Part shown: in pieces, positions 45,823 to 62,650 of the stretch | Layout of the letters: every line of letters starts with the position of its first letter | Position numbering within the stretch: position 1 is the first letter of the stretch | NCBI GenBank assembly: GCA_018268515.1 | Contig: JAFDWK010000068.1 | Span: forward strand, 1 to 62,650 | Length of the DNA stretch: 62,650 nucleotides | Source of the DNA: Actinomycetota bacterium | GTDB lineage: Bacteria > Actinomycetota > Actinomycetes > Actinomycetales > Microbacteriaceae | Direction: 5' to 3' | Translations under genes and position numbers: made by a program | The notes under the pieces: model-generated | The model's input: only the letters and a program-made list of their open reading frames with translations | Told to the model about the DNA's origin: nothing | Database searches by the model: none

Positions 45823-46218
45823 TGTTGGACCCCGGCCGAGATCGGGCGTCCGGGATGGGTCGAGTATCCGCCCGACAGACGATCCGAGCCAAATCGGGAC
45901 ACGAAAACACATGCAGAAACGGAACCGATGTTGTCATTGTGGCGTCTGTAGCAGAATCACGGTATCCAAATTGATCTCACGCTCCTGCCAAAAGGCTTCC
46001 CGCCTTCGTTCCGCACATCGCTCGACGGAAGCGACTTCTCACCCCGTTCCGCTCCTGGCGCGATGACCCGTCGGACTGATCGCACACTATGGGCTCATGG
46101 GAATCAGATCCTTCGCCATCGCCGCCTCGGAGCAGCTGGTCGCGCCATCACCGGGCGTCGCGGATACAAGACGCGGTATCCACTATCGAATGGGACTTTA
46201 TGCATGCATACTGTAAGC

Positions 46219-46449
46219 ATGCCGAACGTGCTGATCCGCGATCTCGATCCGGCGGTGCACTCCGTGCTGTCGGCCCGGGCCGACGCGCGCGGACAGTCGC
46301 TGCAGCAGTATCTGACCGCGGAGCTGACGCAGCTGGCGTCTCGCCCGACGCTGCCGGAGCTGCTCGCGGAACTGGAGCAGCGACCTCCTCAGCACATCCC
46401 CCGCGACGCGATCCTGAAGGCGATTCGTGACGGCCGGCGCGGTCGATGA
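46219..46449 (+). CDS. vapB: VapB-type antitoxin (ribbon-helix-helix, FitA-like)
   Basis: A 76-aa protein: MPNVLIRDLDPAVHSVLSAR then GQSLQQYLTAEL is an N-terminal ribbon-helix-helix of the FitA-like antitoxins; the C-terminal part (LPELLAELEQRPPQHIPRDA) would wrap the toxin. It overlaps vapC by four bases. An ATG at 46204 (MHTVSMPNV) is an alternative start. TATGCATGCATA at 46199-46210, a perfect palindrome, lies just before it and could be the operator. The 390-bp region upstream to the DUF2520 gene start shows no supported gene. Confidence 0.9.
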   Translation: MPNVLIRDLDPAVHSVLSARADARGQSLQQYLTAELTQLASRPTLPELLAELEQRPPQHIPRDAILKAIRDGRRGR

Positions 46450-46838
46450 TCGTCGTCGACGCCTCGGTCGTCGTGGAATTGATCGTCGAGCACGGTTCCG
46501 CACGTCGACTGCATGAGCGTGTTCTGGGCGAGTCTCTCATCGCACCCGACTTCCTGCCTGTCGAGGTGGCCTCTGCCCTGCGCGGATTGAACTTGGGTGG
46601 ACACCTCAGAGACCCCGCTCTCACCGTCGCCGCCGACGATCTCCTCCGCCTCCCCGTCGACCTCCACCCGTCGCTACCGCTGGTCCCCCGGATCCTCGCC
46701 CTGCGACACAACCTCTCCGCCTATGACGCGAGTTACGCCGCACTCGCCGAGGCGTTCCGCTGCCCCCTGCTGACTCTCGACCGGCGGCTGGCTGACGCGG
46801 CACGAGCGCATTGCGATGTCGAGGTTGCGCCGGCATGA
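46446..46838 (+). CDS. vapC: VapC-type PIN-domain ribonuclease toxin
   Basis: A 130-aa PIN-domain toxin expected to cleave RNA unless bound by VapB. Acidic residues are in the expected places: Asp5 (MIVVDASVVVELI), Glu40 (PVEVASALR), Asp93 (LSAYDASYAALAEA) and Asp111 (LLTLDRRLADAA). It overlaps vapB (ATGA) and converges on the hydrolase gene with 15 bases between stops. Targets are unknown. Confidence 0.93.
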   Translation: MIVVDASVVVELIVEHGSARRLHERVLGESLIAPDFLPVEVASALRGLNLGGHLRDPALTVAADDLLRLPVDLHPSLPLVPRILALRHNLSAYDASYAALAEAFRCPLLTLDRRLADAARAHCDVEVAPA

Positions 46839-48195: not shown

Positions 48196-48741
48196 ATGGA
48201 TGCCCTGGAACTCGTCGCACACCCCGCACGGCTGCGGATCGTGCACGCCTTGCGCGGCGGTCGCACACTGACCACGGCCGAGCTCAGCGCCCGACTCCCC
48301 GACGTATCGAAGGCCATGGTCTACCGGCACGTCGAGGCGCTGTCGGCCGCCGGGGTGCTCGAGGTCGCCGAGGAGCGGCGGGTGCGCGGCGCGGTCGAGC
48401 GGCACTATCGGCTGCGTGCGGAGCGCGCCACCGTGAGCGACGACGAGTTCGCAGCCATCACGGCTGAGGAACACCGCCAGATCTTCGCCACGGCCATGGC
48501 GGTGCTGGTGTCGGAGTTCACCGCGTATCTCGACCACGAAGACGCCGATCCCGTCACGGATCTCGTCGGCTACCGCCAGCACGCGCTCTGGCTGAACCAC
48601 GACGAACGAGAGCAGCTCATCGCCGACCTGCGCCGCGCCATCGTGCCCCACCTCGCCCATGAGTCCGCCCCGGGGCGCAGTCGCTATCTGTTGAGCCCGA
48701 TCCTGTTCCCGGTGGAGGAGGGTGTGGGAGTCGGGGAGTAG
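48196..48741 (+). CDS. HTH transcriptional regulator (ArsR/MarR-like winged helix)
   Basis: A 181-aa regulator. MDALELVAHPARLRIVHALR then LTTAELSARLPDVSKAMVYR and HVEALSAAGVLEVAEERRVR form a winged helix of the ArsR-like group with a long C-terminal helical domain (EEHRQIFATAMAVLVSEFTA). Divergent from the hydrolase, sharing the 17-bp palindrome. Its last 125 bases are overlapped on the other strand by the extended reading frame of the vsr gene. Ligand is unknown. Confidence 0.88.
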   Translation: MDALELVAHPARLRIVHALRGGRTLTTAELSARLPDVSKAMVYRHVEALSAAGVLEVAEERRVRGAVERHYRLRAERATVSDDEFAAITAEEHRQIFATAMAVLVSEFTAYLDHEDADPVTDLVGYRQHALWLNHDEREQLIADLRRAIVPHLAHESAPGRSRYLLSPILFPVEEGVGVGE

Positions 48742-49201
48742 CCGGACCGCGATGACTGGCAGGCGCCTCAACCAGAGCGTGTGGGAGGAAGCAGGCATCC
48801 GAGCCGCGAACGGCTGCGACGATCACCTGCGCGACTGCGTCTGGATCCTCATGTTCCCAGAAGCGGAGCACACACCATCCGGCCTCATGTAAGAGGTCGT
48901 CGGTTTCACGGTCGCGCTCGACGTTCCGCTGCAGCTTCGGCAACCAATAGTCGGCGTTGCGCTTGGGCAGGCTCGCATGCTGTGGACACCCGTGCCAGAA
49001 GCAGCCGTCGATGAAGACCGCAACTTGCCGCTTCGTGAACACCATGTCCGCTCGACGTCGCCCTCCGAGCGGAGCGAAATCTACTCGGTATCGCATACCC
49101 GCGGCGTGGATTCGGCGACGCACAGCGGTCTCAGGCTGCGTGTCGCGTCCGCGGTTGGCGAGCATCGAACGCCGAGACCCTTCGCTGCTGGCCCAGGACA
49201 T
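48617..49201 (-). CDS. vsr: Very short patch repair (Vsr) endonuclease with read-through tail
   Basis: Nicks DNA 5' to T in T:G mismatches that arise when 5-methylcytosine deaminates. The family is clear: MLANRGRDTQPETAVRRRIH, ADMVFTKRQVAVFIDGCFWH (Asp52, His70) and YWLPKLQRNVERDRE. The core ends near residue 133 (about 48803); the last 60 residues are Pro/Gly/Arg-rich and run antisense into the HTH gene, so the natural C-terminus was probably lost or replaced at an insertion boundary. It pairs functionally with the cytosine methyltransferase 11 kb away and is divergent from the defence operon. Confidence 0.92.
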   Translation of the reverse strand: MSWASSEGSRRSMLANRGRDTQPETAVRRRIHAAGMRYRVDFAPLGGRRRADMVFTKRQVAVFIDGCFWHGCPQHASLPKRNADYWLPKLQRNVERDRETDDLLHEAGWCVLRFWEHEDPDAVAQVIVAAVRGSDACFLPHALVEAPASHRGPATPRLPHPPPPGTGSGSTDSDCAPGRTHGRGGARWRGAGRR

Positions 49202-49319
49202 ACGAGCACAGTAGTTGGATTCGAGTCCACCTGTCCCCACCGAATGTACAAAGGACCGCCAAAGTCCGAAGACCCCGGTACGTTGAACCGAGGGATGACA
49301 GATCGAAGTGGGACGTGGG

Positions 49320-52300
49320 ATGCCGAATACGACAGATACGTGGACGCCTGATCCCGTGCTGGTGCGCGAGATCGACGAGCAGTTCTCCAGCGCGATCGCC
49401 GCCTACTCGGCAAAGCCAACGCTGATCACCGAGCATGCGAATCATGAGGAGTCCATCCGGACGGGTGGATACGCGAACCGGACACTTCTGGAGCTCGTTC
49501 AGAACGCCGCCGATGCGATGGCGGGCAGTGGCCCCGGTGTCGGTCCGGGGCGTGTGGAGATCGTGTTGGACCCCGCCGAGAACGTCTTGTACTGCGCGAA
49601 CTCGGGTCGACCATTCTCGAAGAACGGCTTGATCGCCATCACGCACGCTCATCTCAGCGGCAAGCGCGGTGACGAGATCGGTCGGTTCGGACTTGGGTTC
49701 AAGTCAGTCCTGGCGGTTACCGATTCGCCCCAGGTTCTTAGCCGCTCTGTGTCGTTCGAGTTCAACTCCGCCAAGGCTCAGGCAGCGATCAAGGAGATCG
49801 GCTCCGCGGACCGGCGGCTCCCCGCGCTCCGCACAGCCACCCTGCTTGATGCGGACCGGCTTTTCGACGAGGATCTGATCGCTAAGAATCTCGCTGAATG
49901 GGCTACCACGATCGTCCGACTGCCGGGTGTGGCCGATACGGCGAAGATCCGGCGGGAGATGGAGACATTCGCGTCCGAGTTCCTCCTCTTTGTCAGCGCG
50001 GTGCGGGAAGTTAGGCTCACCGTTCTCGGCGATCGCGGGTTCGCAACGAGCCACGTCTCCAAGGCCCTCGGGGGTGGCCGATTCAAGATCGAGCGCCCAG
50101 ACTCGACAGGTGACGAGTGGCTGGTGAGCGAGCGCATGCATATGTCCAGCGCGGCAGCTCGACGTGAGGTGGGAGAAGCCGTCTCCCGCAACGAGATCAA
50201 GGTAAGCGTTGCGATGCCTGTCAAGCCCCGCAGAGGCAACCCGGACGCTGGCGACGCTGGCACGCAGGTGGGCCAGTTCTGGAGCTACTTCCCTCTCCAG
50301 GACCGCACATCTGCAACAGCCTTCTTCAACGCTCCATGGAGTGTCAACGACGACCGCACGACTCTGCTGCGGAACGGATACAACCGCGAGATTCTCGCAA
50401 CGCTTGCCGATATGTTCGTCGAGCTTCTTCCACGAGTAAGTGGTGAGCAGGATCCCGCTGCGCACCTCGACTATCTCCCTGCTCGAGGCCGCGAGGCCAT
50501 CTACTTCGGCGACGAGGTGCTGTGCGCCCTCGTGCCGCCGTTGGCTGTTGCTGCAGCGCTGATTCCCGACGGCAATGGCGCGCTGCGAAGCCCGGACGAG
50601 CTGAGGCCGCTCGATCTGATGTGCGAGTGGAAGATTCCCGAAATCGCGTACGAGGCGTGGATAGCCTCTCCAAACACGTTGAAAGACGTGCCTCACTGGC
50701 GCTGCTACAGCTCAACCCAGCGGCTAGCTAGGCTCCGGCAGCTGTTCGCGGTAAGCGTGAATCCAGACAGATTCGACGAAGGCGGCCGCGATATGAAACG
50801 TGCGCTCGAGATGGTACCCAAGCGCGGCATCCAGTCATGGCTACGTGAGTGGGCCGAAGGGGATGATGCCGAGTCATCGGCGAACGCGGTCAAAGTCGTC
50901 ATGGCCAATCGCGGGGCTGAAGAAGCGGACAAGGCTCGGGTTGTCCCGACCACTGACGGTCTGCGCGCACTCGCTGACAGGTCGCTCGTATTCCTCTCGA
51001 AGGCTGCGGACCTCGAGATCGAGGGCGCGGTGTTCGTCACTCCCGAGTTCCTCGCCTACCCGGAGATGGAACGGATTCTTCGCTCCGCCGGGTTCCGTGA
51101 CCTCGATCCGATCGCGATCCTCAACGCCCGACTCGCGAAGCTATCGACGGATCATGGACCCGAGCACCAGGAGAAGTTCTGGGACGCCGCTCTTGGTGTC
51201 AGCCAACTTGATGCGATCGCCGCAGTTCGCGCCGCGCAGACCGCCCAGATTCTCGTTCCGACACGTGATGGCGGCTGGCACTGGCCGCAACAGGTTCTAG
51301 ACCTGGAGGGCGAGCTTCCCGGCGCAGACGGCAGAGTCCTCCTGGACCGGCAGAGATGTGTCCCCGCACTCGCCCACGAAATCGGAGTGGTGAACGCTCC
51401 GCAACGCGACTACGACTTCGAGGACGAAGCGGCCGCCGGTGAATATCAGGATTGGGTGATCGCGGACCTGAACGGTCGGCTCACTCCCGGCGAACGCCCG
51501 ATCGAGCAGATATCGCTCTACCCGGGTCAAGGCAACTCGCCCGGTCCGTTCTCGGTGCTGCTCCTGCTGCAGACCTCCGGGGCATCGGATCAGATCCGCG
51601 AGAGCTGGACGCGCGGCCTCCTGGAACTCGGTGACGCACCATGGGATTGCGAAGACACCGCAAGCGGGCTGTCCTACCGCGTGAAATCGCCTGTCCGGTG
51701 GGCGGCCGAACGGGCGGGATTGCTCAGGACCACCCGCGGCTTCCGACCTATCGCTCATGTCGTCGCCCCATCGCTTATCGAGTATCGAGACCTGCTGCCC
51801 TTGTACGAGGGGCCACGCAGCATCGTGGACGCGCTTCGCATGCCGCAAGAGTTGTCGGCGGTTGCGCCGGCAGTCCTCCGCGACGCGTTCGCGATCGACC
51901 TGCTTCCACCGCAGCTCACGGACGCCGCAATTGTGCGATTCATACTCGAAGCCGCGCCATTGGCGTACCCTGACGGGAAGCCTCCGGGCATCCCTGCTCG
52001 CGTCGGACGCGTAATGGAGTCACGGGCGACCGGCACTGTATACATCGCGGTCGATGAGGAGCAACGGGACTACCTCGCCCAGCATCAGCGCCCCTATTTG
52101 TGGGCGAGTGAAGTAGACGCAGACCTGCTCGTGGAGAAAGTCGGGTGCAAGCGCTTCGAGGACTCGTTCGCGTTCTCGATTCGGATCGACGGCCAGCAGG
52201 AGCCGGAGCGGTTGCTCGACGTCTTCACGGGCCTACGGGGCTGGCCGAGCAAAGTGGACCTGGGCAGTACGACGTTCTCACGAGCTGAGTCCATCGCGAA

Positions 52301-54089
52301 GTGGGTCACCACCGAGGAGGGCGTGGAGACGCAGTCGCTCGATTCGTACCGGGACGGTGTGGACTTCATCGCAGCCACCGGACTGACCGAGAAGCAATCG
52401 CTGCGGCTCGTGAGCGAAGCATTCGATCTCGGCCTCAACAACGCCGAGATCGAGCGCGTGCTGGAAGTCGGCCTCGCGCAGCACCTCGAATTGATGCGGC
52501 AGGAGGCGCTTGCGGCGACCACGAATGCGGACCGGCTCGAGGTCTATTTCGGGGCGGATGATCTGCGGGAGAAGCTCCCCAAGGGACTCTGGCAGGGCTT
52601 GGAGGCACAAGGCCTGGCGTCGAAGAGCACTTCGGTTGCGGCCCTCTGCCTATCGGTATATGGAAAAGACACGATCAGCGAGCTGGCCGATCTCTTCCGA
52701 CGGGAGGGATTCCCCGACGTTCCGACGCAGTGGGCCGGTGGTGCGGCGACCATCACCTGGCTGCGAAAGATGGGCTTCGGATCGGAGTTCGCCGGACAGC
52801 GTACTCAGCGGCAGGCACCGGAATTCGTCGTGCCCGGTGCAACCGTGCTGCCCGAGCTGCACGATTACCAGTCCCGCATCAGTGATGAGCTTCGCTCCAT
52901 GCTGAGAGAGGTCGATGGTGCCGGCCGACGCGCCAAGGCGATGGTGGAGCTGCCCACAGGCGCCGGCAAGACACGGGTCGCGACACAAACGCTCCTTCAA
53001 CTGTTCATCGACGGGGAGCTGCGTGGGCCCGTCCTCTGGATCGCTCAGTCCCAGGAGCTCTGCGAACAGGCAGTGCAAACGTTTGGCGAAGTATGGCGTG
53101 GCCTCTGCACGGAGCAGCGGGTTGACATGCCGCTGACGCTCGGACGGCTGTGGGAGAGCAACGATGTCCAGGAACCGGACACCGCTCACAGCGTCATCAT
53201 CGCGACCGACGCGAAGCTCGAAGTGCTGCTCGACAGGGCAGAATATGACTGGCTCAGCAAGCCGGGAGCGGTCGTCATCGACGAGGGGCACGTCGCGGGC
53301 ACGTCTACTCGGTACACGCGAATCCTTTCGTGGCTCGGAGTGGACGGGAGACGATTCGAGCGGCCCTTGGTCGGCCTCTCCGCCACACCGTTCAAAGGCA
53401 CCTCTGTGCAGGCGACGGACCAACTAGCAGCACGCTTCGGCCGACGAAAGATCGCTGCCTTCGATCAGAATCCGTACCAGGAGCTTGTCGCGCGCGGCGT
53501 GTTGGCCCGCGTGAAGCATGAGGTTCTTCCGGGTGCACAGGTCCGACTTTCAGCCGATGAGGCGCACGAGGCGCAGCGCACGAACCGCGTCAGCGGCAAG
53601 GTGCTGGACCGAGTCGCAGCCGATCACGCTCGCATGGCGATCTTGGTCGACAGCATCATGGCCTTGGAAACCGAACGAGCGCGATCGGTCCTCGTATTCA
53701 CGCCGAACGTGCTCTCGGCTCAGGTCCTCGCCGCGACGCTTCGGTACCGAGGGATAGAGGCCGCGTCAGTCAGCGGCAAGACCGGTCGTCAGGAACGACG
53801 TGACGTGATTCGGCGATTCAAGGACGGCGAGATACAGGTGCTCGCCAACTGCGACCTCCTCACGCAGGGCTTCGACGCACCCGGCGTCACCGCGCTATAT
53901 ATCGCGCGTCCCACGTTCAGCCCGAACGCCTACATCCAGATGGCCGGACGCGGGCTGCGCGGCCGGGAGAATGGCGGTAAGGATGAGTGCCTGATCGTCG
54001 ATATGGCCGACAACTTCGGTAGCGCCGACATCAACAACCTGCTCGGCTTCCGCGAATACGAGGAGCTGTGGAAGGAACAGCAGTCGTGA
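49320..54089 (+). CDS. Hsp90-type (sacsin-like) ATPase fused to an SF2 DEAD/DEAH helicase
   Basis: A 1589-aa protein, first gene of the island operon. Residues about 1-250 form a GHKL/Hsp90-like ATP-binding domain: LLELVQNAADAM (Glu58, Asn62), YCANSGRPFSKNGL and GRFGLGFKSV (121-130), similar to sacsin N-terminal ATPases. A long middle region (about 300-1180) has no recognised domain. The end is a helicase: Walker A LPTGAGKT (1211-1218), DEGH (from 1321), SATPF (from 1354), and QMAGRGLRG. I used the ATG at 49320; a GTG at 49308 is possible, and a tiny ORF (49295-49351) precedes it. It might take the place of DrmE/DrmD in this DISARM-like set; that is inference. Confidence 0.88.
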   Translation: MPNTTDTWTPDPVLVREIDEQFSSAIAAYSAKPTLITEHANHEESIRTGGYANRTLLELVQNAADAMAGSGPGVGPGRVEIVLDPAENVLYCANSGRPFSKNGLIAITHAHLSGKRGDEIGRFGLGFKSVLAVTDSPQVLSRSVSFEFNSAKAQAAIKEIGSADRRLPALRTATLLDADRLFDEDLIAKNLAEWATTIVRLPGVADTAKIRREMETFASEFLLFVSAVREVRLTVLGDRGFATSHVSKALGGGRFKIERPDSTGDEWLVSERMHMSSAAARREVGEAVSRNEIKVSVAMPVKPRRGNPDAGDAGTQVGQFWSYFPLQDRTSATAFFNAPWSVNDDRTTLLRNGYNREILATLADMFVELLPRVSGEQDPAAHLDYLPARGREAIYFGDEVLCALVPPLAVAAALIPDGNGALRSPDELRPLDLMCEWKIPEIAYEAWIASPNTLKDVPHWRCYSSTQRLARLRQLFAVSVNPDRFDEGGRDMKRALEMVPKRGIQSWLREWAEGDDAESSANAVKVVMANRGAEEADKARVVPTTDGLRALADRSLVFLSKAADLEIEGAVFVTPEFLAYPEMERILRSAGFRDLDPIAILNARLAKLSTDHGPEHQEKFWDAALGVSQLDAIAAVRAAQTAQILVPTRDGGWHWPQQVLDLEGELPGADGRVLLDRQRCVPALAHEIGVVNAPQRDYDFEDEAAAGEYQDWVIADLNGRLTPGERPIEQISLYPGQGNSPGPFSVLLLLQTSGASDQIRESWTRGLLELGDAPWDCEDTASGLSYRVKSPVRWAAERAGLLRTTRGFRPIAHVVAPSLIEYRDLLPLYEGPRSIVDALRMPQELSAVAPAVLRDAFAIDLLPPQLTDAAIVRFILEAAPLAYPDGKPPGIPARVGRVMESRATGTVYIAVDEEQRDYLAQHQRPYLWASEVDADLLVEKVGCKRFEDSFAFSIRIDGQQEPERLLDVFTGLRGWPSKVDLGSTTFSRAESIAKWVTTEEGVETQSLDSYRDGVDFIAATGLTEKQSLRLVSEAFDLGLNNAEIERVLEVGLAQHLELMRQEALAATTNADRLEVYFGADDLREKLPKGLWQGLEAQGLASKSTSVAALCLSVYGKDTISELADLFRREGFPDVPTQWAGGAATITWLRKMGFGSEFAGQRTQRQAPEFVVPGATVLPELHDYQSRISDELRSMLREVDGAGRRAKAMVELPTGAGKTRVATQTLLQLFIDGELRGPVLWIAQSQELCEQAVQTFGEVWRGLCTEQRVDMPLTLGRLWESNDVQEPDTAHSVIIATDAKLEVLLDRAEYDWLSKPGAVVIDEGHVAGTSTRYTRILSWLGVDGRRFERPLVGLSATPFKGTSVQATDQLAARFGRRKIAAFDQNPYQELVARGVLARVKHEVLPGAQVRLSADEAHEAQRTNRVSGKVLDRVAADHARMAILVDSIMALETERARSVLVFTPNVLSAQVLAATLRYRGIEAASVSGKTGRQERRDVIRRFKDGEIQVLANCDLLTQGFDAPGVTALYIARPTFSPNAYIQMAGRGLRGRENGGKDECLIVDMADNFGSADINNLLGFREYEELWKEQQS

Positions 54090-55603
54090 TTCTCAGCCCG
54101 GACCTTCGAGACATCGAACGAACAGCCCAGAGCGACGCTGAACGCAAGCTTGCCCGGCTCCTCCACGATGTACCCGGTGCCAACGCCGTCGCATTCCACT
54201 CGGTCAAGCTTCGGACCGCTCCTGGGAAGCAAATGGCTGAGGCCGACTTCGTCATCCTCTGGAAAGGAGTCGCGATCACCGTCGAGGTGAAGGGTGGCGG
54301 CGTGAAGAAGTTTGACGGCGCCTGGTACACCGTCGACAGGCACGGCGACAACCACAAGTTGAAGTCCTCACCGATCGACCAGGCGCGCGACGCGATGTTC
54401 GCGCTAAGGGAGATACTCCGGGAGGACGGGCTCGGATGGTTTCCGTCGGAGGCGATCGCCGTCACGCCTGACATCGACCATCCACCGACCGATGTCTCAT
54501 GGAAGGCTACGCATTGGCTGGCCAAGGAGTCCATGACCGCAGACGCCTTGACCTCCGCACTGGACTTGATTGCCCATGCGGCACCGGACGCTCCGAGGGG
54601 CACGCCCGTGGCTCGTGTCGATGCGCTACGGGAGCGACTCTTCGGTGAGTTCTCACGTCTGCCCGTCATCGACGCTCAGCGAGGCGCCGTGATCGACGAG
54701 CAGAACACCGCGACCGCGGAACAGGCGAGAGTACTCGCAGGGCTGTCGAAGAATCCCCGCATCCTCGTTCTGGGGGGCGCCGGCACAGGGAAGTCTGTGG
54801 TACTCGCGGAGGCCGCGAAACTGGAGGCGGCAGCCGGGCGCTCGGTCCTCGTGACTTTCAGATCCCCTGGTCTTCGGGCGTTCTTCGAACCTCGCCTGAC
54901 AGGGAGAGCGATCGAGGTGCGCGAGTTCGCGTCGATCGACCCTTCATCCCAGTTCGATGTGTTGCTCGTCGACGAGGCTCAGGATCTGATGTACGCCGAT
55001 GCGATGGATGTGCTCGACCGGGTAGTGGTAGGCGGTCGCGGGCACGGCCGCTGGCGGATGTTCCTCGACCAGAATAACCAGTCTCATGTAGACGGATGCT
55101 TCGATGATGATGTTTTCGAGATTGTCCGGGCCGAAGGCATTGAGTACGACCTGAGCAAGAACGTCCGGAACACGCGTGCGATCGTGCACATGGTTCAGGA
55201 ATACCTTGGCGCCGATGTCGGCGACCCGGGGATCGTGAATGGCGAGCGCATCCAGTGGGAGACGGTGGCGCGGCAAGAGTCTCGAGCTGAGGCGGTCCGT
55301 ATCGCAAGGTCGTTCAAGAAGGACGGCGTCAAGGCTTCCGACATCTGGGTCATTCCGGCGACGGCGGTCGAATCGCTCGATGAAATCGTGGACGGAATCC
55401 GGGTTCTCAGTCCCAGGGTCGCGAAGGGGCTCGAGGCGGAGCACGTCATCGTCTGTGAACTGCCGAGTGAATTCTCGGACGCAGCACTCGCGGCTATTTA
55501 TGTGGCGGTGACGCGCGCACGCGTAACACTCCACGTCGTCTACACCGATGCAGACCGGCGACGCCTGCAGGTGCTGGCGCGTAGGGCGGAGGTCAGGGCA
55601 TGA
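54086..55603 (+). CDS. NERD-domain nuclease fused to an SF1 (UvrD/DUF2075-like) helicase
   Basis: A 505-aa protein. The N-terminal NERD nuclease-like domain (about residues 15-110) carries the PD-(D/E)XK residues Asp54 (MAEADFVILW) and Glu67-x-Lys69 (TVEVKGG). A helicase core follows: Walker A GGAGTGKS with Lys236, motif II DEAQD at 296-300, and a UvrD-like final motif VAVTRARVTLHVVY. GTG at 54086 overlaps the preceding stop and has AAGGAA 9 bases upstream; a GTG at 54068 is an alternative. It supplies the only recognisable nuclease in the operon and might replace DrmC. Its stop overlaps drmA by four bases. Confidence 0.9.
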   Translation: MILSPDLRDIERTAQSDAERKLARLLHDVPGANAVAFHSVKLRTAPGKQMAEADFVILWKGVAITVEVKGGGVKKFDGAWYTVDRHGDNHKLKSSPIDQARDAMFALREILREDGLGWFPSEAIAVTPDIDHPPTDVSWKATHWLAKESMTADALTSALDLIAHAAPDAPRGTPVARVDALRERLFGEFSRLPVIDAQRGAVIDEQNTATAEQARVLAGLSKNPRILVLGGAGTGKSVVLAEAAKLEAAAGRSVLVTFRSPGLRAFFEPRLTGRAIEVREFASIDPSSQFDVLLVDEAQDLMYADAMDVLDRVVVGGRGHGRWRMFLDQNNQSHVDGCFDDDVFEIVRAEGIEYDLSKNVRNTRAIVHMVQEYLGADVGDPGIVNGERIQWETVARQESRAEAVRIARSFKKDGVKASDIWVIPATAVESLDEIVDGIRVLSPRVAKGLEAEHVIVCELPSEFSDAALAAIYVAVTRARVTLHVVYTDADRRRLQVLARRAEVRA

Positions 55604-58600
55604 CGCTGACCCCCGCACAGGCTCGTGCGCTGGACCATCTCCGTGCGGCATACGTCGGACCCGAGCAGGGCGAAGACGAAGTGCTCGTCGAGAACCGGCC
55701 CTCCCTCCAATACGCGGTCGGCATGCTATTTCCGTCGGGCGAAGAGGCAGCAGCGCTGGGAAGCGTTGCTGCCGGAGAAGACGATCCGGCGCAGCTCGTC
55801 ATAGCCGACGTCGATGAAGGCGATGTCGAAGAGGGCGACGTGATGAGTCCGATCGCCGAGGACTGGCGGCCATCCTCAGCTGCGATCTCCTTCGTCACGG
55901 ACTCGGAATCCGTACGCTGCGACTTCTCCGCCGGTACCTATGCGCTCATTGAGGATGAAGGGCCGCAACGATGGCAGCGCACTGGCCACGAGTTCCGGAA
56001 CATCGAGCTCACGCGAGGAAGGGCGCAGGTACGCCAGATGGACGCTGGCGGTGTTCCGTTCGAGGTCGGAACTCGTTGGCGGCAGTACGGATCCTCGAAC
56101 TGGCTCGTCACCCTTCATGTCCGACTTCGGACGATGACGACGGGCGAGGATCGCACCGACATACCTCTCATGCTGTTCCAGGTCGATCTATCCGCGCGAC
56201 CAGCCGATGGCGCCCGCATTCTCGAGTACGACGTGTCGCGCGCAATCGACGTCGATCCGGAGGCGGCTGAACTGCGTCTGCGGTACCGGAGTCGGAAGGT
56301 CTTCGCCGTCGGACACGGGATGGCTGCGGACTGGGAGACCGACGAGCGCGGAGACTGCGTCCGCATCAAGCTCGACCCGGTGCCTCACTTCGTCGTACCG
56401 GCAATTGAGCAGACCGGCGGGGACAAGCTCGATGAGCGCGCTCGATCCGCGCTCGACCTCGCGTTCCTCGCGACGATCGACTCGAAGCCTTCACCGGTGC
56501 TGGACGCACTCAGATCTTTTGTCGACGCCTTCTCCGAATGGTGCGTAGATCAGAGAGTGCAAGCCTCAGAACTCGGTGCGGACGCCGGGTCGATCGCCGA
56601 GCGCGCGGGAACGGCTGCAGATCGCATGCGGCAGGGCGTCGAACTGATCGCAAATCCTGAGTCGGCCGCGCTGCGGTCAGCGTTCGCACTCGCCATGTCG
56701 GCGATGCGCCTTCAGATGCACCAGGCGGCGACTGGTCGTGGCGAGACAGAGCCGAAGCCCGCGTGGCGGCCCTTCCAGCTCGGCTTCCTGCTGGTGTCCC
56801 TTGCATCGACCGTCGACGACACCCACCCTGACCGCTCATTGGTCGACTTGATCTGGTTCCCAACAGGTGGTGGAAAGACCGAGGCCTACCTGGCTCTCGC
56901 TGCCATCGTGATCTTCCTGCGCCGGATCGAGTACGGAGCGGAGGGCGGCGGCACCGCGATAATCACCCGCTACACCTTGCGACTGCTCACTTCGCAGCAG
57001 TTCCAGCGCGCCGCTTCGTTGATCTGCGCGATGGAACTGCTCCGCGAATCAGACCACCGAGCAAGGGGGATGGTTAGATTCTCGATCGGGCTCTGGGTCG
57101 GGAACGAAACGACTCCCGATACACGCTCCAACGCGAAATACGCGCTGGACCGGCTCTACAAGGCCCAGCATCCGCAGGATGCGAACGAGTTCCAGATCAC
57201 GGAATGCCCCTGGTGTCTGGCAGAGCTGGTCCCCGTAGAGAAGGACGACACCCGCAGGAGGTACGGTGCCCGTCGGGTGGGCCACGATGTGGTCTTCCGG
57301 TGCGTAAACTCCGCATGCGAGTTCTCGCGTCGTGACCTTCCGATGAACGTCGTCGACGAGCTGCTCTACGAGGAGCCGCCGACCTTCCTGCTGGCGACAG
57401 TCGACAAGTTCGCCCGCCTTCAATTCAAGGGCCCCGCCGGACGACTCCTCGGGATCGGCACTCGGTATCGGCAGCCGTCGCTCATCATCCAGGATGAGTT
57501 GCACCTGCTGTCGGGCCCACTCGGCACAACAGTCGCGGTCTTCGATGCTGTGATCCAGTTGTTGCTCGGCCGCACGGCCTCCGTGCCGAAGATCGTCGCG
57601 TCGACAGCGACGATCCGCGCATCGGACTCTCAGGTGAAGGGCCTGTACGGCCGACAGGTGGCGCTCTACCCGCCGGCCGGGATCGACGGCGACACCACGT
57701 TCTTCGCCAGTCCGGTGGCCAGCGGCGAGGGCCGCCTGTACGCCGGGATGATGCCGCAGAGCGTCTCGCAGGCCACGGCCCTCGTTGCCGCGGCATCGCC
57801 GCTGCTCGAGTTGCCCGGGGTACTAGCCGGCGCCGACCGCATCGGTGATCATCTCGACCCCTATTGGACCTTCGTGATGTACCACAACAGCCTGCGGGAG
57901 CTGGGGCGTACGGGGGCGCTGCTTCTGGACGACATCAACGGTCGCCTCGGTACCCGGGCGGATCGGCTCGGACTTGAACTAAGGACGGTGCATGCGGACC
58001 GGGTTCTCGAGCTCACGAGCCGTCGAGGGCCGGAAGAGCTGCCGAAGGATCTGCGCCGGCTTCGCCTCAACGCGGACGAATCGGACGAGGCGGTTGACGC
58101 AGTGCTGTCCTCAAACATGCTGTCGGTCGGTATCGACGTTCAGAGACTCGCGCTCATGCTGATGGTCGGTCAGCCAAAAACCACTGCGGAATACATCCAA
58201 GCCACAAGTCGAGTGGGTCGCGGGTCAGTGAACGGCATCGTGATGACTCTGTTCCGGTCCAACCGAGCTCGTGATCGATCCCACTTCGAGACCTTCAGGG
58301 GTTTCCACGATGCGTTGTATCGGAACGTAGAGCCGACGAGCGTTACGCCCTGGTCCCTCTCCTCGCGAGATCGTTCGCTAGCGGGCGCACTCATCGCGTT
58401 GATTCGACACTCCCTGCCGGCGCTATCCGGGGACGCAGACGCCGGCGCGTTCGATCTGTCCGACGATCGTTTCCGGAGCTCGGTGGAGGTTCTGGTCGGG
58501 CGCCTCCTCGAAGTCGTCCGAGAATCAGAGGAACACGAAACCGACGCGGTCGAAGACCAACTCTGGCGGCTGTTTCGGGAATGGGATCGGAAGGCGCAGG

Positions 58601-58791
58601 AGGCCCGCGCTTCCGGAGAGCACCTTCGATACGAGCATCGTCAAGCGGGGGACCGGGCGTTGTTGAAGCGTTTCGGGCAGACGGGCGATGAATGGCTGGT
58701 GGCCGATTCTATGCGCTCCGTCGAGCCGAATGTCGCGGTCGAGGTGCAGGAGCCCGAGCGGGAGGTGCAGCGTGCAGAAGATCCGTCATGA
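55600..58791 (+). CDS. drmA: DISARM-type helicase DrmA
   Basis: A 1063-aa SF2 helicase of the DISARM anti-phage system. Walker A WFPTGGGKTEAYLAL (Lys426), motif II QDELHLLSG (Asp632), ASTATIRASD and the motif VI ATSRVGRGSVNG (868 onward) are in the typical DrmA wording. A CxxC...C-4-C cluster (Cys536, Cys539, Cys568, Cys573) between motifs I and II suggests a zinc ribbon. DrmA with DrmB forms the DNA-binding core of DISARM. It overlaps both neighbours, with drmB starting 20 bases before its stop. Confidence 0.94.
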   Translation: MTLTPAQARALDHLRAAYVGPEQGEDEVLVENRPSLQYAVGMLFPSGEEAAALGSVAAGEDDPAQLVIADVDEGDVEEGDVMSPIAEDWRPSSAAISFVTDSESVRCDFSAGTYALIEDEGPQRWQRTGHEFRNIELTRGRAQVRQMDAGGVPFEVGTRWRQYGSSNWLVTLHVRLRTMTTGEDRTDIPLMLFQVDLSARPADGARILEYDVSRAIDVDPEAAELRLRYRSRKVFAVGHGMAADWETDERGDCVRIKLDPVPHFVVPAIEQTGGDKLDERARSALDLAFLATIDSKPSPVLDALRSFVDAFSEWCVDQRVQASELGADAGSIAERAGTAADRMRQGVELIANPESAALRSAFALAMSAMRLQMHQAATGRGETEPKPAWRPFQLGFLLVSLASTVDDTHPDRSLVDLIWFPTGGGKTEAYLALAAIVIFLRRIEYGAEGGGTAIITRYTLRLLTSQQFQRAASLICAMELLRESDHRARGMVRFSIGLWVGNETTPDTRSNAKYALDRLYKAQHPQDANEFQITECPWCLAELVPVEKDDTRRRYGARRVGHDVVFRCVNSACEFSRRDLPMNVVDELLYEEPPTFLLATVDKFARLQFKGPAGRLLGIGTRYRQPSLIIQDELHLLSGPLGTTVAVFDAVIQLLLGRTASVPKIVASTATIRASDSQVKGLYGRQVALYPPAGIDGDTTFFASPVASGEGRLYAGMMPQSVSQATALVAAASPLLELPGVLAGADRIGDHLDPYWTFVMYHNSLRELGRTGALLLDDINGRLGTRADRLGLELRTVHADRVLELTSRRGPEELPKDLRRLRLNADESDEAVDAVLSSNMLSVGIDVQRLALMLMVGQPKTTAEYIQATSRVGRGSVNGIVMTLFRSNRARDRSHFETFRGFHDALYRNVEPTSVTPWSLSSRDRSLAGALIALIRHSLPALSGDADAGAFDLSDDRFRSSVEVLVGRLLEVVRESEEHETDAVEDQLWRLFREWDRKAQEARASGEHLRYEHRQAGDRALLKRFGQTGDEWLVADSMRSVEPNVAVEVQEPEREVQRAEDPS

Positions 58792-60607
58792 TCTCCGTCT
58801 GTCGGAGACCGTGTCACCATTCGGTGTGGGTGCGATCGTAGACGTCCGGGGCGAGTCCCTGATCGCTCCCGACACGTCGTGGTGGGATCGAAAGGTTGCG
58901 CCAGAGATCCACTGCGGCCGCCTCGTCGACCAACTGGCGCAGCCGGGCCGTCTGCGCCCGGTTCTCCGCCAGGCACCTTCGCATGCGGGCAGAGCCGGGC
59001 AGGAGACTGCGAGCCTTCCCTACTGGCGATTCCCGGCTTGGCGCTTCTGCGAGCGATGTCTCAAGCTCTCGAAGTTGACGACGATCGACAAGGGGCGGTT
59101 TCGAAACCGGTGCGACTGCGGAGGCGTGCTCGTTCCGATGCGGTATGTCGCGGTCTGCAAGACAGGTAGTCACGTACGGGATGTGCCCTGGTTCATGTGG
59201 GCCCATCGTGGGCATGACAAGGGCGTGACTGAGGAGGTCCGCGTCTGCCGCGCGTACAAGGAACTACGTTTCGTGCGTTCCAATGTGAGCGGCGAAGGCC
59301 TGGCATCTCTCCTTGTCGTCTGCAACGGATGCAACCGATCGCGTTCCCTTTCGGACCTCGTAGGTGACGCCGCGCTCCGCCGCGACGGGATCCGGTGCGA
59401 CGGTCGGCAGCCCTGGGAACCCGAGGACTCGATGTCCGAGCCGTGCGACGCGGACCTCGTCGCGGTCCAGCGTGGAGCGACGGGCAACTACATCGCCGAC
59501 CGTGTGTCCGCGCTCGATATCCCCGAGGAGAAGACTCGGTCGGAGGATCTGATCGCAAAGGTCCGAGCTCACGACTATTTCCAGCGCCTGGTCGACGACA
59601 ACGGCGGGCCGAAGTCCGATATGATCGCTGGCTGGATCGCAGACGAGGTCGGCGTCGACGCCGATACGGTGCTGGGAGTCGCACACGGAGAAGAGCACGC
59701 AGCCGACACCGGAATGCACGTGCTCAAGGACGGCGAATGGGCTGCATTCGTGAAGAAGATCGCGAGCGGCAAGGACCGGCAGATCAGCGACTTCGTCGTC
59801 GATGGTTGGCCGACCGCTTCCATCACTTCTGGGCCGTCCGAAGTCCGCAGCGTGATAGCAGGCATCGGGCAGGTGCACCGCGTACGCGAGGTGCGCGCTC
59901 TGAAAGGCTTCCGCAGACACAGCCCGAGCGCCTCCTTCATCAGCGCCGACCTCGGGCGGGATCCGAGGAAGCGCTCGGTGTACCCGTCGCTGGAGCTGTT
60001 CGGGGAGGGTATTTTCCTGCAATTCGACGAAGAGGCGCTCCAGGCTTGGGAGTCCCTCCCAGATGTGCGGGCCCGTGCGCAGATTCTCATGGATCGTCGC
60101 GATCAGCTGGAGTGGGCTCGCTCGCGCCTCGACGTTCCGGAGCCTCGCTTCATCGCCCTGCACACCATCGCCCATCTCCTGATCCGCCGCCTCGCCTTCG
60201 CCAGCGGCTACTCATCCGCGGCGCTGCAAGAACGCGTCTACGCGAGCACCGAACGGCCCGATAACACGGCTGGCGTACTTATCTACACCGCGGCCGGCGA
60301 CGCTCAAGGTACGCTTGGGGGCCTCGTGCGGCTCGGCGCCCCGGATCTACTGGCCCCGTTGCTCGTCGCGGCCTTGGACGATGCCGACGTTTGCTCAAAC
60401 GACCCGGTATGCATCGAGAGCGATCGGCAAGGATCCTCTCAACTGAACCTCTCGGCCTGCCACGGGTGCGCCTTGGTGAGCGAAACCTCTTGCGAGACGG
60501 GCAACCGACTCCTGGACCGGCAGCTAGTGCTGGGAGGGAGCGATGTGACAGGACTGCTTGGCGGGGTTCTTCCCGAAGTGCGGGCCGCTCTGGGAGTCGG
60601 TTCATGA
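58772..60607 (+). CDS. drmB: DISARM protein DrmB (DUF1998)
   Basis: A 611-aa partner of DrmA. It starts VQKIRHDLRLSETVSPFGVG from GTG 58772 with GGGAGG 6-12 bases upstream. An N-terminal cysteine group (RFCERCLKLSKL ... NRCDCGG) looks like a zinc ribbon. The C-terminal DUF1998 carries conserved cysteines (541, 547, 563, 566, 574) in CSNDPVCIE and LSACHGCALVSETSCETGNR, the DrmB hallmark. DrmB is a core DISARM subunit. It overlaps drmA by 20 bases and the methyltransferase by four. Confidence 0.94.
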   Translation: MQKIRHDLRLSETVSPFGVGAIVDVRGESLIAPDTSWWDRKVAPEIHCGRLVDQLAQPGRLRPVLRQAPSHAGRAGQETASLPYWRFPAWRFCERCLKLSKLTTIDKGRFRNRCDCGGVLVPMRYVAVCKTGSHVRDVPWFMWAHRGHDKGVTEEVRVCRAYKELRFVRSNVSGEGLASLLVVCNGCNRSRSLSDLVGDAALRRDGIRCDGRQPWEPEDSMSEPCDADLVAVQRGATGNYIADRVSALDIPEEKTRSEDLIAKVRAHDYFQRLVDDNGGPKSDMIAGWIADEVGVDADTVLGVAHGEEHAADTGMHVLKDGEWAAFVKKIASGKDRQISDFVVDGWPTASITSGPSEVRSVIAGIGQVHRVREVRALKGFRRHSPSASFISADLGRDPRKRSVYPSLELFGEGIFLQFDEEALQAWESLPDVRARAQILMDRRDQLEWARSRLDVPEPRFIALHTIAHLLIRRLAFASGYSSAALQERVYASTERPDNTAGVLIYTAAGDAQGTLGGLVRLGAPDLLAPLLVAALDDADVCSNDPVCIESDRQGSSQLNLSACHGCALVSETSCETGNRLLDRQLVLGGSDVTGLLGGVLPEVRAALGVGS

Positions 60608-61758
60608 GCGCGCCGGCGCGCCGGTCGGACTCGCAACTGAAGCCCGTCTACGATGACCAAGTGACCCGCGAGATAAGAGTTCTGGACCTGTTCGCCGGGG
60701 CAGGCGGGCTCACGGCGGGGCTTCACGCGGCATCCGATCGCTTTCGGACCGTCGGAGCGGTGGAGATGGATCGTGCAGCCGCGGCCTCGTACGAGGCAAC
60801 TTACGGCGAGGGCATTGTCTACGCCGGCGACATCAAGACCTGGCTTGCGGAGGAGGAAGTGCCGCACGCCGACGTGATTATCGGAGGGCCGCCCTGCCAG
60901 GGCTTCTCGAGCCTCGGCAAGCAGGACGTCGAAGACGAGCGCAACTCGCTCTGGCAGGAGTACGCGGAAACGATCCGACGCGCTCGGCCGAAGTACTTCG
61001 TTGTCGAGAACGTGGCCGAGTTTAAGAAGTCGCCCCAATATCGACAGTTCAAGGAAGCAACCTCTGAAGGCGGAATGCTGTCCGAGTATGGCTTCGAGGC
61101 GGAAGTGCTAAACGCTGCGGACTTCGGTGCTCCACAGTCTCGACGACGTACAGTGATCATCGGCTACCGTCGGGAGCTCGGCTTCCCCGGCTTCCCCCAT
61201 CCAACACACTCTGCCACTCCTGAAGCCGATGGATTGAAGCGGCACGTGACCGTGAAGGATACGCTGGGCCGTCTGCCTCGCGTGCCCGACCGCGATGACC
61301 TTTTCGATCGACGTCGGACCGAGTTCGCGGGAAGGCAGTATGCAGGAACCTTCTCGATACGTGATCTGCATTGGAGCCGTAGGTACACCGATCTCTCCCT
61401 CAAGCGATTTGCGGTGATCCCGGCGGGAGGCAACCGACGCGACCTTGAGGCGTACCCGGAGTTGATGGCGCCGTGCTGGACCGCGCACAAGACCGGGTCC
61501 GGCGATGTTATGGGTCGGCTCCGCTGGGACCGCCCCTCGGTCACGATTCGGACCGAGTTCTTCAAGCCTGAGAAGGGGCGGTACATCCACCCCGAGGAGG
61601 ATCGGGCGATCACTCACTATGAGGCCGCATTGCTTCAAGGGTTCGGCCGCGAGCATCGGTTCGTGGGCTCGCGCACCGATATCGCCAGGCAGATCGGTAA
61701 CGCCGTTCCGATTCCCCTTGGCGCCGCGATCGGACGCCTCCTAGCAGACGCTATTTGA
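60604..61758 (+). CDS. drmMII: C5-cytosine DNA methyltransferase (DrmMII type)
   Basis: A 384-aa m5C methyltransferase. Motif I VLDLFAGAGGLTAGL, motif IV GGPPCQGFSS with catalytic Cys98, motif VI YFVVENVAEF, motif VIII FGAPQSRRRTVIIGY and motif X QIGNAVPIPLGAA are complete, so it should be active. The variable region is short, hence the target sequence is not readable. In class 2 DISARM this enzyme marks self DNA. The Vsr gene in the same island fits repair of its deamination damage. The start overlaps drmB (ATGA); an in-frame GTG at 60661 is an alternative. Confidence 0.94.
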   Translation: MSAPARRSDSQLKPVYDDQVTREIRVLDLFAGAGGLTAGLHAASDRFRTVGAVEMDRAAAASYEATYGEGIVYAGDIKTWLAEEEVPHADVIIGGPPCQGFSSLGKQDVEDERNSLWQEYAETIRRARPKYFVVENVAEFKKSPQYRQFKEATSEGGMLSEYGFEAEVLNAADFGAPQSRRRTVIIGYRRELGFPGFPHPTHSATPEADGLKRHVTVKDTLGRLPRVPDRDDLFDRRRTEFAGRQYAGTFSIRDLHWSRRYTDLSLKRFAVIPAGGNRRDLEAYPELMAPCWTAHKTGSGDVMGRLRWDRPSVTIRTEFFKPEKGRYIHPEEDRAITHYEAALLQGFGREHRFVGSRTDIARQIGNAVPIPLGAAIGRLLADAI

Positions 61759-61764
61759 AACGTC

Positions 61765-62112
61765 ATGCCGTCCCCCGCCACTCTCGCCTCTCTCCGTGCC
61801 TTCGTCGAGGAGCGGGATTGGGACCAGTTCCACTCGCCGGAGAACCTCGCCAAGAGCATCTCCATCGAGGCGGGCGAGTTGCTCGAGTGCTTCCAGTGGG
61901 GACCCGACTTCGACCAGACCCGCGTCGAAGAGGAGTTGGCTGACGTCGTCACCTACTGCATCCATTTGGCGAATCGGATCGGCGTCGATCTCGACGAGAT
62001 CGTGCTGCGCAAGCTCGAGTCGACCCGGGCGAAATACCCGGCCGAACAGGCTCGGGGCCGAATGGTGAAGTACACGCAGCTCGCTGCCGAGCGAGAGCAA
62101 CGCGACCTTTAG
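61765..62112 (+). CDS. MazG-like nucleotide pyrophosphohydrolase
   Basis: A 115-aa all-alpha NTP pyrophosphatase-type protein: AFVEERDWDQFHSPENLAKS then SIEAGELLECFQWGP (ExxE) and EEELADVVTYCIHLANRIGV (ExxD), the metal-binding motif of the MazG/dCTPase (RS21-C6-like) group. It hydrolyses nucleoside triphosphates to monophosphates, possibly modified ones. It is 6 bases downstream of the methyltransferase, so it is probably the last gene of the defence operon, where it might limit nucleotides or remove damaged ones during phage infection; that role is inferred. Confidence 0.9.
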   Translation: MPSPATLASLRAFVEERDWDQFHSPENLAKSISIEAGELLECFQWGPDFDQTRVEEELADVVTYCIHLANRIGVDLDEIVLRKLESTRAKYPAEQARGRMVKYTQLAAEREQRDL

Positions 62113-62181
62113 CCGTACAGCGCCCAGCGACACCACCGATGCGCGGTGACCTGATGCGCGAGGATGACCGAGGATGACACC

Positions 62182-62508
62182 ATGACCGCCCAACGCACCG
62201 TCCTCCTGCACGTGTCCGACCGCCCGGACGACATCGTGCGCGCCATCGGCAGCGCCGAGACCCTGCATCGCGAGCGGCCCGAGACCCGGATCCGCATCAT
62301 CGTGAACGGCCCGGCGATCCGCGGTGTCACCACCGATGCGCCACCGCTTCCGGCGACCGACGCCGCGACGATCGAAGCGTGCGAGAACGGGATGCGCAAC
62401 CACGGCATCCCGTTCGAGTCGCTGCAGCCCGGCGTCGTCACGGTGCTGGCCGCGGTCGTCGCGCTCAGCGACGGCCAGTTCGACGGAGCCGCCTACATCC
62501 GCGTGTAA
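62182..62508 (+). CDS. DsrE-like family protein
   Basis: A 108-aa protein with an alpha/beta pattern of the DsrE/YchN type: TVLLHVSDRPDDIVRAIGSA, IRIIVNGPAIRGV, ACENGMRNHGIPFESL and VVTVLAAVVALSDGQFDGAA. Some relatives handle sulfur on a conserved Cys; here the Cys lies in EACENG. GAGGATGACACC precedes the ATG at 62182; an ATG at 62164 would add six residues. GC content and GGATCC use return to the genomic norm here, so it is probably outside the defence island. Confidence 0.8.
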   Translation: MTAQRTVLLHVSDRPDDIVRAIGSAETLHRERPETRIRIIVNGPAIRGVTTDAPPLPATDAATIEACENGMRNHGIPFESLQPGVVTVLAAVVALSDGQFDGAAYIRV

Positions 62509-62615: not shown

Positions 62616-62650
62616 ATGGAGATCTCCACGCTGATCCTGCTCGTCGCCGT
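62616..62650 (+). CDS. Start of a further gene, cut by the window end
   Basis: ATG at 62616 opens a frame reading MEISTLILLVA, a hydrophobic start consistent with a membrane segment or signal peptide. Too little is present for a family. TTGACGG lies a few bases upstream. Confidence 0.35.
   Translation, partial: MEISTLILLVA

Follow-up and report, generated by a model that had tools for sequence, protein, structure and literature searches.

DISARM class 1 comprises DrmD, DrmMI, DrmA, DrmB and DrmC, class 2 comprises DrmMII, DrmE, DrmA, DrmB and DrmC, and Tiamat is a single gene, TmtA. We analyzed an operon in which DrmA and DrmB stand beside two further helicase proteins, in a contig from a Microbacteriaceae genome (JAFDWK010000068.1); the window is this whole contig, 62,650 bases, and the contig end is position 62650. 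A sequence-only reading had described a divergent vsr gene followed by six packed genes (g1, g2, DrmA, DrmB, a C5-cytosine methyltransferase and a MazG-like gene) and had proposed a non-canonical DISARM. The open-reading-frame listing reproduces this layout exactly, with overlaps of 4, 4, 20 and 4 bases and one 6-base gap, and the domain calls were borne out by profiles. The features are as follows:

48617..49240, minus strand: Vsr-type very-short-patch-repair endonuclease (TIGR00632, PF03852), domain at about 48848-49189, divergent from the operon
49308..54089, plus strand: g1, a sacsin/Hsp90-like GHKL ATPase (residues about 20-380), a middle region and a RadD-type SF2 helicase (about 1183-1569)
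54086..55603, plus strand, GTG start: g2, a NERD nuclease domain of PD-(D/E)xK type (about 54131-54427) and a UvrD-type SF1 helicase (about 54713-55555)
55600..58791, plus strand: DrmA of the short type, 1063 residues, a YprA-family SF2 helicase with an acidic trigger-loop equivalent at about 55732-55863
58772..60607, plus strand, GTG start: DrmB, the DUF1998/MZB partner of DrmA (NF038324)
60604..61758, plus strand: C5-cytosine DNA methyltransferase (PF00145), overlapping DrmB by 4 bases
61765..62112, plus strand: MazG-like protein (PF12643), within a low-G+C island

The g1 start is an ATG at 49308 or 49320, the latter being likelier.

The operon resembles DISARM class 1 in its DrmA helicase with a trigger loop, its DrmB partner and its defence-operon layout, but no DrmC, DrmD or adenine methyltransferase is seen in it, its DrmA is shorter and belongs to a separate clade, and g1 and the SF1 helicase are extra. 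With class 2 it shares DrmAB and a C5-methyltransferase, whereas neither a DrmE match nor DrmC is seen and the methyltransferase is exchanged independently of the core. Like Tiamat, g1 has an N-terminal sacsin-like ATPase: PADLOC TmtA, which we take to be the Tiamat protein, matches g1 residues 20-381 over model positions 11-358 of 1538 (E 6.4e-51). The match ends at residue 381, however, and g1 continues to a C-terminal RadD-type SF2 helicase and lies in an operon. The g2 protein, with its NERD nuclease fused to an SF1 helicase, is like Nhi and other NERD-helicase defence proteins; here the gene lies in a larger operon, between g1 and DrmA in 62 of the 79 related loci considered below.

Further likenesses appear in two papers. 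In PMC12458937, ARMADA type II (ArmA-D) pairs a YprA-family helicase with an SF1 helicase of the GajB/UvrD-like kind, and TALON has a YprA-family helicase with a NERD-type nuclease. ARMADA's BrxHII-like and PglX-like proteins and its single-chain YprA with a Vsr-type nuclease domain, as described there, are not seen in the operon; unlike TALON, the operon proteins show no TPR-CSD or TBP (E 0.01), NERD is fused to SF1, and DrmA and DrmB are separate genes. The MORC/paraMORC and Mza-type restriction operons in PMC2292703 combine a GHKL ATPase, an SF2 helicase, a 5-methylcytosine (5mC) methylase and Vsr, as the locus here does; that paper does not use the term DUF1998. Two other loci share parts with both kinds. 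In L028 (593-13290), the neighbors of DrmA-DrmB are MzaB and MzaC genes and a separately encoded RadD-like helicase akin to the C-terminal portion of g1. In L181 (7182-17386, on the Arthrobacter plasmid p2MP), a C5-methyltransferase and MzaB-, MzaC- and MzaD-like genes accompany a sacsin/TmtA-like ATPase, which is akin to the N-terminal portion of g1.

A co-inherited core of g1, SF1, DrmA and DrmB

An alignment of 14 g1 proteins was scanned against species genomes, giving 482 relatives, of which the best 80, corresponding to 79 loci, were kept. DrmA and DrmB are present in all 79 loci, and the order g1-DrmA-DrmB on one strand is found in 78, L112 being rearranged; the sequence-only reading had named a lack of this order elsewhere as counting against it, and on this point the result does not refute it. 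The pairwise distances of the four core proteins (g1, SF1, DrmA, DrmB) are closely correlated with one another (Spearman 0.89-0.96). Other recurrent neighbors within five genes reach at most 14 of the 79 loci, a value attained by two families, the NaeI cluster and a 285-residue family. With further search loci added and five repeats of the same genomes dropped (as also before the counts over 87 loci given below), there are 89 distinct g1 loci; G732, where g1 is split over two contigs, was counted once, and L028, with the helicase only, was not counted. DrmAB lies near g1 in 87 of the 89.

These counts bear on the proposal that g1 and NERD-SF1 are an independent Tiamat-like or Nhi-like defence system merely adjoining DrmAB. 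The TmtA match to g1, a match of the Nhi model to g2 (27.6 bits, E 2.7e-7) and the two g1 loci without DrmAB beside g1 in the DNA examined are in keeping with it, but the constancy of DrmAB near g1, the distance correlations and the overlapping genes make it very unlikely.

The proteins of the core have recognizable folds and intact active sites. The fold of g1 is sacsin/SMCHD1-like (sacsin-type ATP-binding domain NF047352, 74.3 bits vs a cut-off of 50), followed by ResIII and Helicase_C; the BrxHI/BrxHII model matches only at E 0.002, through the helicase part. In g2, NERD (PF08378) scores 32.7 bits vs a cut-off of 22.1, and the SF1 helicase domains are present, mostly under the Pfam cut-offs. 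The NERD, SF1, GHKL and SF2 motifs are nearly invariant across relatives of g1, g2 and DrmA. DrmA matches PADLOC DrmA at E 7.8e-195 and the Serratia DrmA chain 7s9v_A at E 7.2e-143; DrmB matches NF038324 (405.9 bits vs a cut-off of 240) and Serratia DrmB in 7s9v (E 5e-65). Both align with this pair, solved by cryo-electron microscopy, DrmA having 1063 residues here vs 1325 in the Serratia chain. At the trigger-loop position, located by alignment through L149, acidic residues outnumber basic ones in all 21 DrmA proteins compared, and the equivalents of Serratia R1294 (a DNA contact) and V1296 (a proposed methylation sensor) are present in 86 of 87 rows, with a gap in the remaining one. DrmB residues C541, C547, C563, C566 and further cysteines are kept in at least 97% of 62 rows. 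In Microbacterium sp. T32 (L048, 16284-19475), DrmA is split over two reading frames, either a broken copy or an assembly error.

We favor, with about an even chance of its being right, the reading that the operon is a DISARM-related anti-phage system, made up of the co-inherited core g1-SF1-DrmA-DrmB and a host-marking C5-methyltransferase and working by the scheme for DrmAB, NERD-SF1 and g1 given below. The DISARM variant first proposed is upheld as a conserved, DrmC-free, DrmA-DrmB-based system in which an ATPase-SF2 fusion is joined by an SF1 protein, but not in having Vsr, the methyltransferase and MazG as fixed parts.

The gene between g1 and DrmA varies: it is NERD-SF1 in the 62 loci noted above, another stretch of 1.6-1.9 kb in 10, and absent in 6. 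Nine of the ten other stretches hold one gene cluster, and the member scanned, from L113, is a UvrD helicase (PF00580, E 3.9e-27) without NERD; relatives of this variant in L025, L037 and L038 score as GajB-type helicases. The earlier suggestion that the NERD-helicase supplies the nuclease can hold only for the main branch (62 of 79), since the 10 loci with another stretch, the 6 with no gene and the rearranged L112 depart from this arrangement. NERD cannot be the sole effector, since the UvrD-type variant lacks it where scanned and six loci have no gene there.

At E 1e-30, 12 of 398 family genomes and 7 of 396 genomes of a phylum sample have g1, four of the latter at full length, the window's own genome being included in both counts. 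DrmB exceeds its cut-off in 24 of the 396, and in one of these genomes, G278, a full-length g1 does not adjoin DrmB. Carriage by viruses was rejected: among 80 viral-contig loci kept, a match to most of g1 (residues 18-1583) occurs in one, and in the other 79 the match is to the helicase part alone. Plasmid carriage of g1 was likewise rejected, as none of 14 matching plasmid records covers 80% of the query.

DrmC and the lineages of DrmA

A DrmC profile was built from nine PLD genes directly 3' of DrmB in control loci, two of them confirmed as DrmC by PADLOC; it finds 10 of 20 DrmB-sampled controls, namely its nine builders and one independent locus (L151). With this profile no DrmC is found in the window, in agreement with the sequence-only reading, and none in the 89 distinct g1 loci (in 86 of them the sequence extends 900 bases or more past DrmB); the window's relatives have no drmC 3' of DrmB. 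In the rest of the genome, PADLOC PDLC02585 finds only two stretches of one 529-residue frame (E 1.5e-8 and 3.4e-4), which we read as a probable cardiolipin synthase. A hidden DrmC was therefore not found in the window, the remaining genome or the g1 loci. The absence of DrmC is not diagnostic, because DrmC is dispensable and often missing, as stated in Bravo et al. 2022 (PMC9142583), where the nuclease of DISARM without DrmC is called a mystery.

The seven proteins from vsr to MazG gave no PADLOC match to DrmD or DrmMI among the matches listed (25 of 28 for g1, 25 of 62 for the methyltransferase). DrmE is also absent from the matches listed (for g1, 25 of 28, the rest being weaker than E 0.0025), although its profiles may be insensitive, the gene in the DrmE position of L179 being unmatched as well. 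The idea that g1 replaces DrmE or DrmD thus keeps the upstream position of g1 in its favor but finds no match to either protein among those listed.

These results bear on a further alternative, in which the operon is a class 2 DISARM without DrmC, with DrmMII as its methyltransferase and with an accessory role for the upstream helicases. A C5 methyltransferase does lie in the operon, and DrmMII models match it (177 bits, E 1.3e-52), but the top PADLOC model is DruM2 (304 bits, among the 25 of 62 matches listed), DrmE is missing from the listed matches, and the upstream helicases co-vary with the core while the methyltransferase does not. The DrmA clade of the window is also separate from the class-2-like plasmid locus L179, though L179 is a long branch. 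We regard this alternative as unlikely.

In a tree of 117 DrmA proteins, the window DrmA belongs to a clade of 72 g1-associated rows (Shimodaira-Hasegawa-like approximate likelihood ratio test, SH-aLRT, 100), separate from the class 1 rows that carry DrmC. A further 14 g1-associated rows form a second set closer to class 1, and L028 falls elsewhere. The g1 tree likewise recovers the first group as one starred clade, which there takes in L033, and places the second group outside it. A single clade of all g1-bearing DrmA was rejected (approximately unbiased test, p 1.75e-5, for 52 selected rows, three with long branches having been excluded), so that g1 occurs together with DrmAB in two lineages of DrmA.

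Relatives of DrmA were examined in 11 plasmid records, none of which holds DrmC. Seven of the plasmid DrmA proteins, covering at least 86% of the query, carry only the NCBI label 'helicase-related protein' (Streptomyces, Deinococcus, Azospirillum, Photobacterium, Tsukamurella, Rhizobium and Rhodococcus). An SF1-type gene adjoins DrmA-DrmB in all seven, most weakly in Streptomyces, and NERD is found in four, by profile in Deinococcus, Azospirillum and Rhodococcus and by annotation in Rhizobium. A Priestia record, where DrmA is unnamed and less of the query is covered, has no SF1-type gene by annotation. Because SF1-type genes adjoin DrmA-DrmB on seven plasmid records, the wider branch is SF1 plus DrmA-DrmB; two actinobacterial lineages within or close to this branch are marked by g1.

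On the Rhodococcus opacus plasmid pROB02 (L177, 7137-18598), NERD-SF1, DrmA and DrmB are followed by an annotated Vsr, a NaeI-family endonuclease and a cytosine methyltransferase, without g1. Directly 5' of SF1-DrmA-DrmB or DrmA-DrmB, proteins of 898, 690, 512 and 536 residues lie in L160 (9050-11746), L163 (1961-4033), L167 (3046-4584) and L168 (14295-15905), with no match in Pfam at E 0.001 or PADLOC at E 0.0001.

Methyltransferase, Vsr and MazG beside the core

Vsr endonucleases repair T:G mismatches that arise at methylated cytosines. The Vsr protein of the window is well supported (TIGR00632, 127.8 bits vs a cut-off of 97.85; PF03852, E 3.2e-17), and its residues D65, D78, C80, H83, C85 and H88 are kept in 52 or 53 of 53 rows. 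The methyltransferase matches PF00145 at E 1.5e-60, and its PCQ motif occurs in 58 of 58 rows. The inheritance of these two proteins is not that of the core. Distances of the methyltransferase correlate with those of the core genes at Spearman 0.05-0.13 and Pearson 0.18-0.28 (for the loci with more than one methyltransferase gene, which at 150 bits or above number 3 of 87, the best-scoring gene entered the comparison), and the two proteins together range from Spearman -0.11 to 0.13. Vsr and the methyltransferase as core were rejected as co-inherited parts by these correlations, and retained as frequent partners. The MazG-like protein (PF12643, E 2.4e-18) has a homologue in 2 of the 79 loci, and in L030; it was rejected as a component and is an incidental, not a conserved, partner. 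These results weaken the earlier inclusion of Vsr and MazG among the parts of the system.

In g1 loci, methyltransferase and Vsr genes often lie within exchangeable 5mC restriction cassettes; Micromonospora globispora (L091), for one, has the core together with a NaeI cassette. This arrangement suggests another reading, in which the core is a second-line machine beside any 5mC restriction-modification cassette: the cassette would mark self and cut phage DNA, and the core would load on the resulting ends and finish. Defence genes cluster anyway, however, and the dcm profile was built from g1 loci and is biased towards finding dcm there. By rank, there is almost no correlation between the distances of dcm and those of vsr (Spearman 0.065, Pearson 0.49). 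In the window, L040, L041, L042, L048, L075 and L079, moreover, the methyltransferase is directly 3' of DrmB with no NaeI-cluster gene near, most other neighbors being unannotated; in L042 an HNH protein lies two genes past vsr. We hold this second-line reading to be possible but rather doubtful.

The 285-residue family (L093, 17407-18339; L115, 9184-9849; and relatives) lies mostly directly beside the core or dcm/vsr genes. The members scanned gave no match in Pfam (L093) or PADLOC (L093, L115).

Proposed working and genomic setting

For the system with a g1-SF1-DrmA-DrmB core, we infer each mechanistic step, complex formation and phage protection from sequence and from analogy with described systems. 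DrmAB, kept closed by its acidic trigger loop, would load on unmarked linear or single-stranded ends of foreign DNA and translocate; Serratia DrmAB is activated by single-stranded DNA with a 5' overhang, the binding of which displaces the trigger loop (PMC9142583). In the main branch NERD-SF1 would act as a nuclease-helicase, cutting and unwinding the engaged DNA in the stead of DrmC. The single nuclease-helicase Nhi nicks and unwinds DNA (PMC12904381), and in ARMADA II a YprA helicase and a GajB-like SF1 helicase protect (PMC12458937). The g1 protein may be an ATP-operated clamp (an ATPase of Hsp90/sacsin/MORC type) fused to a RadD-type translocase, which would gate, couple or license the complex and might recognize forked or recombining DNA; the coupling or licensing role is proposed because of the analogy with GHKL ATPases in 5mC/Vsr restriction operons (PMC2292703). 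C5-cytosine methylation would be the self mark of the host, and Vsr would repair the T:G mismatches that are its mutagenic by-product.

Several observations weigh against this reading. The 79 loci were picked by g1 similarity as the best 80 of 482, so that distant forms are under-sampled, and g1 belongs to a minority: of the 24 genomes in the phylum sample whose DrmB exceeds the cut-off, 4 have it at full length. In the DNA examined, DrmAB is missing beside g1 in two loci, L033 and L027 (in L027 a contig end is close by), and the pairing of g1 with DrmAB is not simply ancestral to one DrmA group. DrmA itself scores 796 bits against the NCBIfam equivalog NF038325, under the cut-off of 950. Between g1 and DrmA, the 10 loci with another stretch and the 6 with no gene depart from the scheme. 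Finally, a fixed self-marking role is weakened, because the methyltransferase does not co-vary with the core and, at a threshold of 150 bits, is missing from 29 of 87 loci.

The gene set is unnamed by the PADLOC, NCBIfam and Pfam models and the literature searched, although its parts are named, and the DISARM branch in PMC12458937 may include these proteins. If our reading is correct, actinobacteria would hold a widespread further type related to DISARM, one without a name in current annotation; it would make testable which nuclease acts when DrmC is missing, and would join Hsp90/MORC-type restriction ATPases to YprA defence helicases.

The operon occupies a low-G+C island: G+C is 0.626-0.647 from g1 through MazG and 0.635 in the Vsr domain, and 0.65-0.767 in the remaining genes called in the window. 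On the left, the island begins close to where an ArsR-like gene ends; the C-terminal tail of the vsr frame (about 76 residues) overlaps the end of this gene antisense. The island probably ends at about 62.1 kb, just past MazG, because the next open reading frame (62164-62508) already has a G+C of 0.699. A promoter and terminator scan gave a site count not above that of shuffles, and in an empty-site test via the flanking ArsR-like gene the own genome was the sole match among 119 (E 1e-40).

This setting is informative about one more alternative, a DNA repair operon rather than a defence system. RadD-, UvrD- and YprA-type proteins include repair helicases (PMC12458937), but the patchy distribution (the 12 of 398 family genomes), the low-G+C island and the adjoining restriction cassettes point away from repair, which we consider most improbable.

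A conserved trio of genes lies 5' of the g1-DrmA-DrmB operon on the opposite strand in L097, L099, L101 and L105, and has an ARMADA-like resemblance in the one member of each family checked. Its proteins have about 694-755 residues (DruE/YprA-type in L097, 1.2e-52), 1560-1763 residues (a type IIG/DrmMI-like methylase in L101) and 960-1001 residues (a DrmD/BrxHII-like helicase in L099, 9.1e-96). In the window, about 1.8 kb to the left of vsr, two short overlapping genes (46063-46838), the second encoding a PIN-domain protein (PF01850), form what we read as a putative VapBC-type pair.

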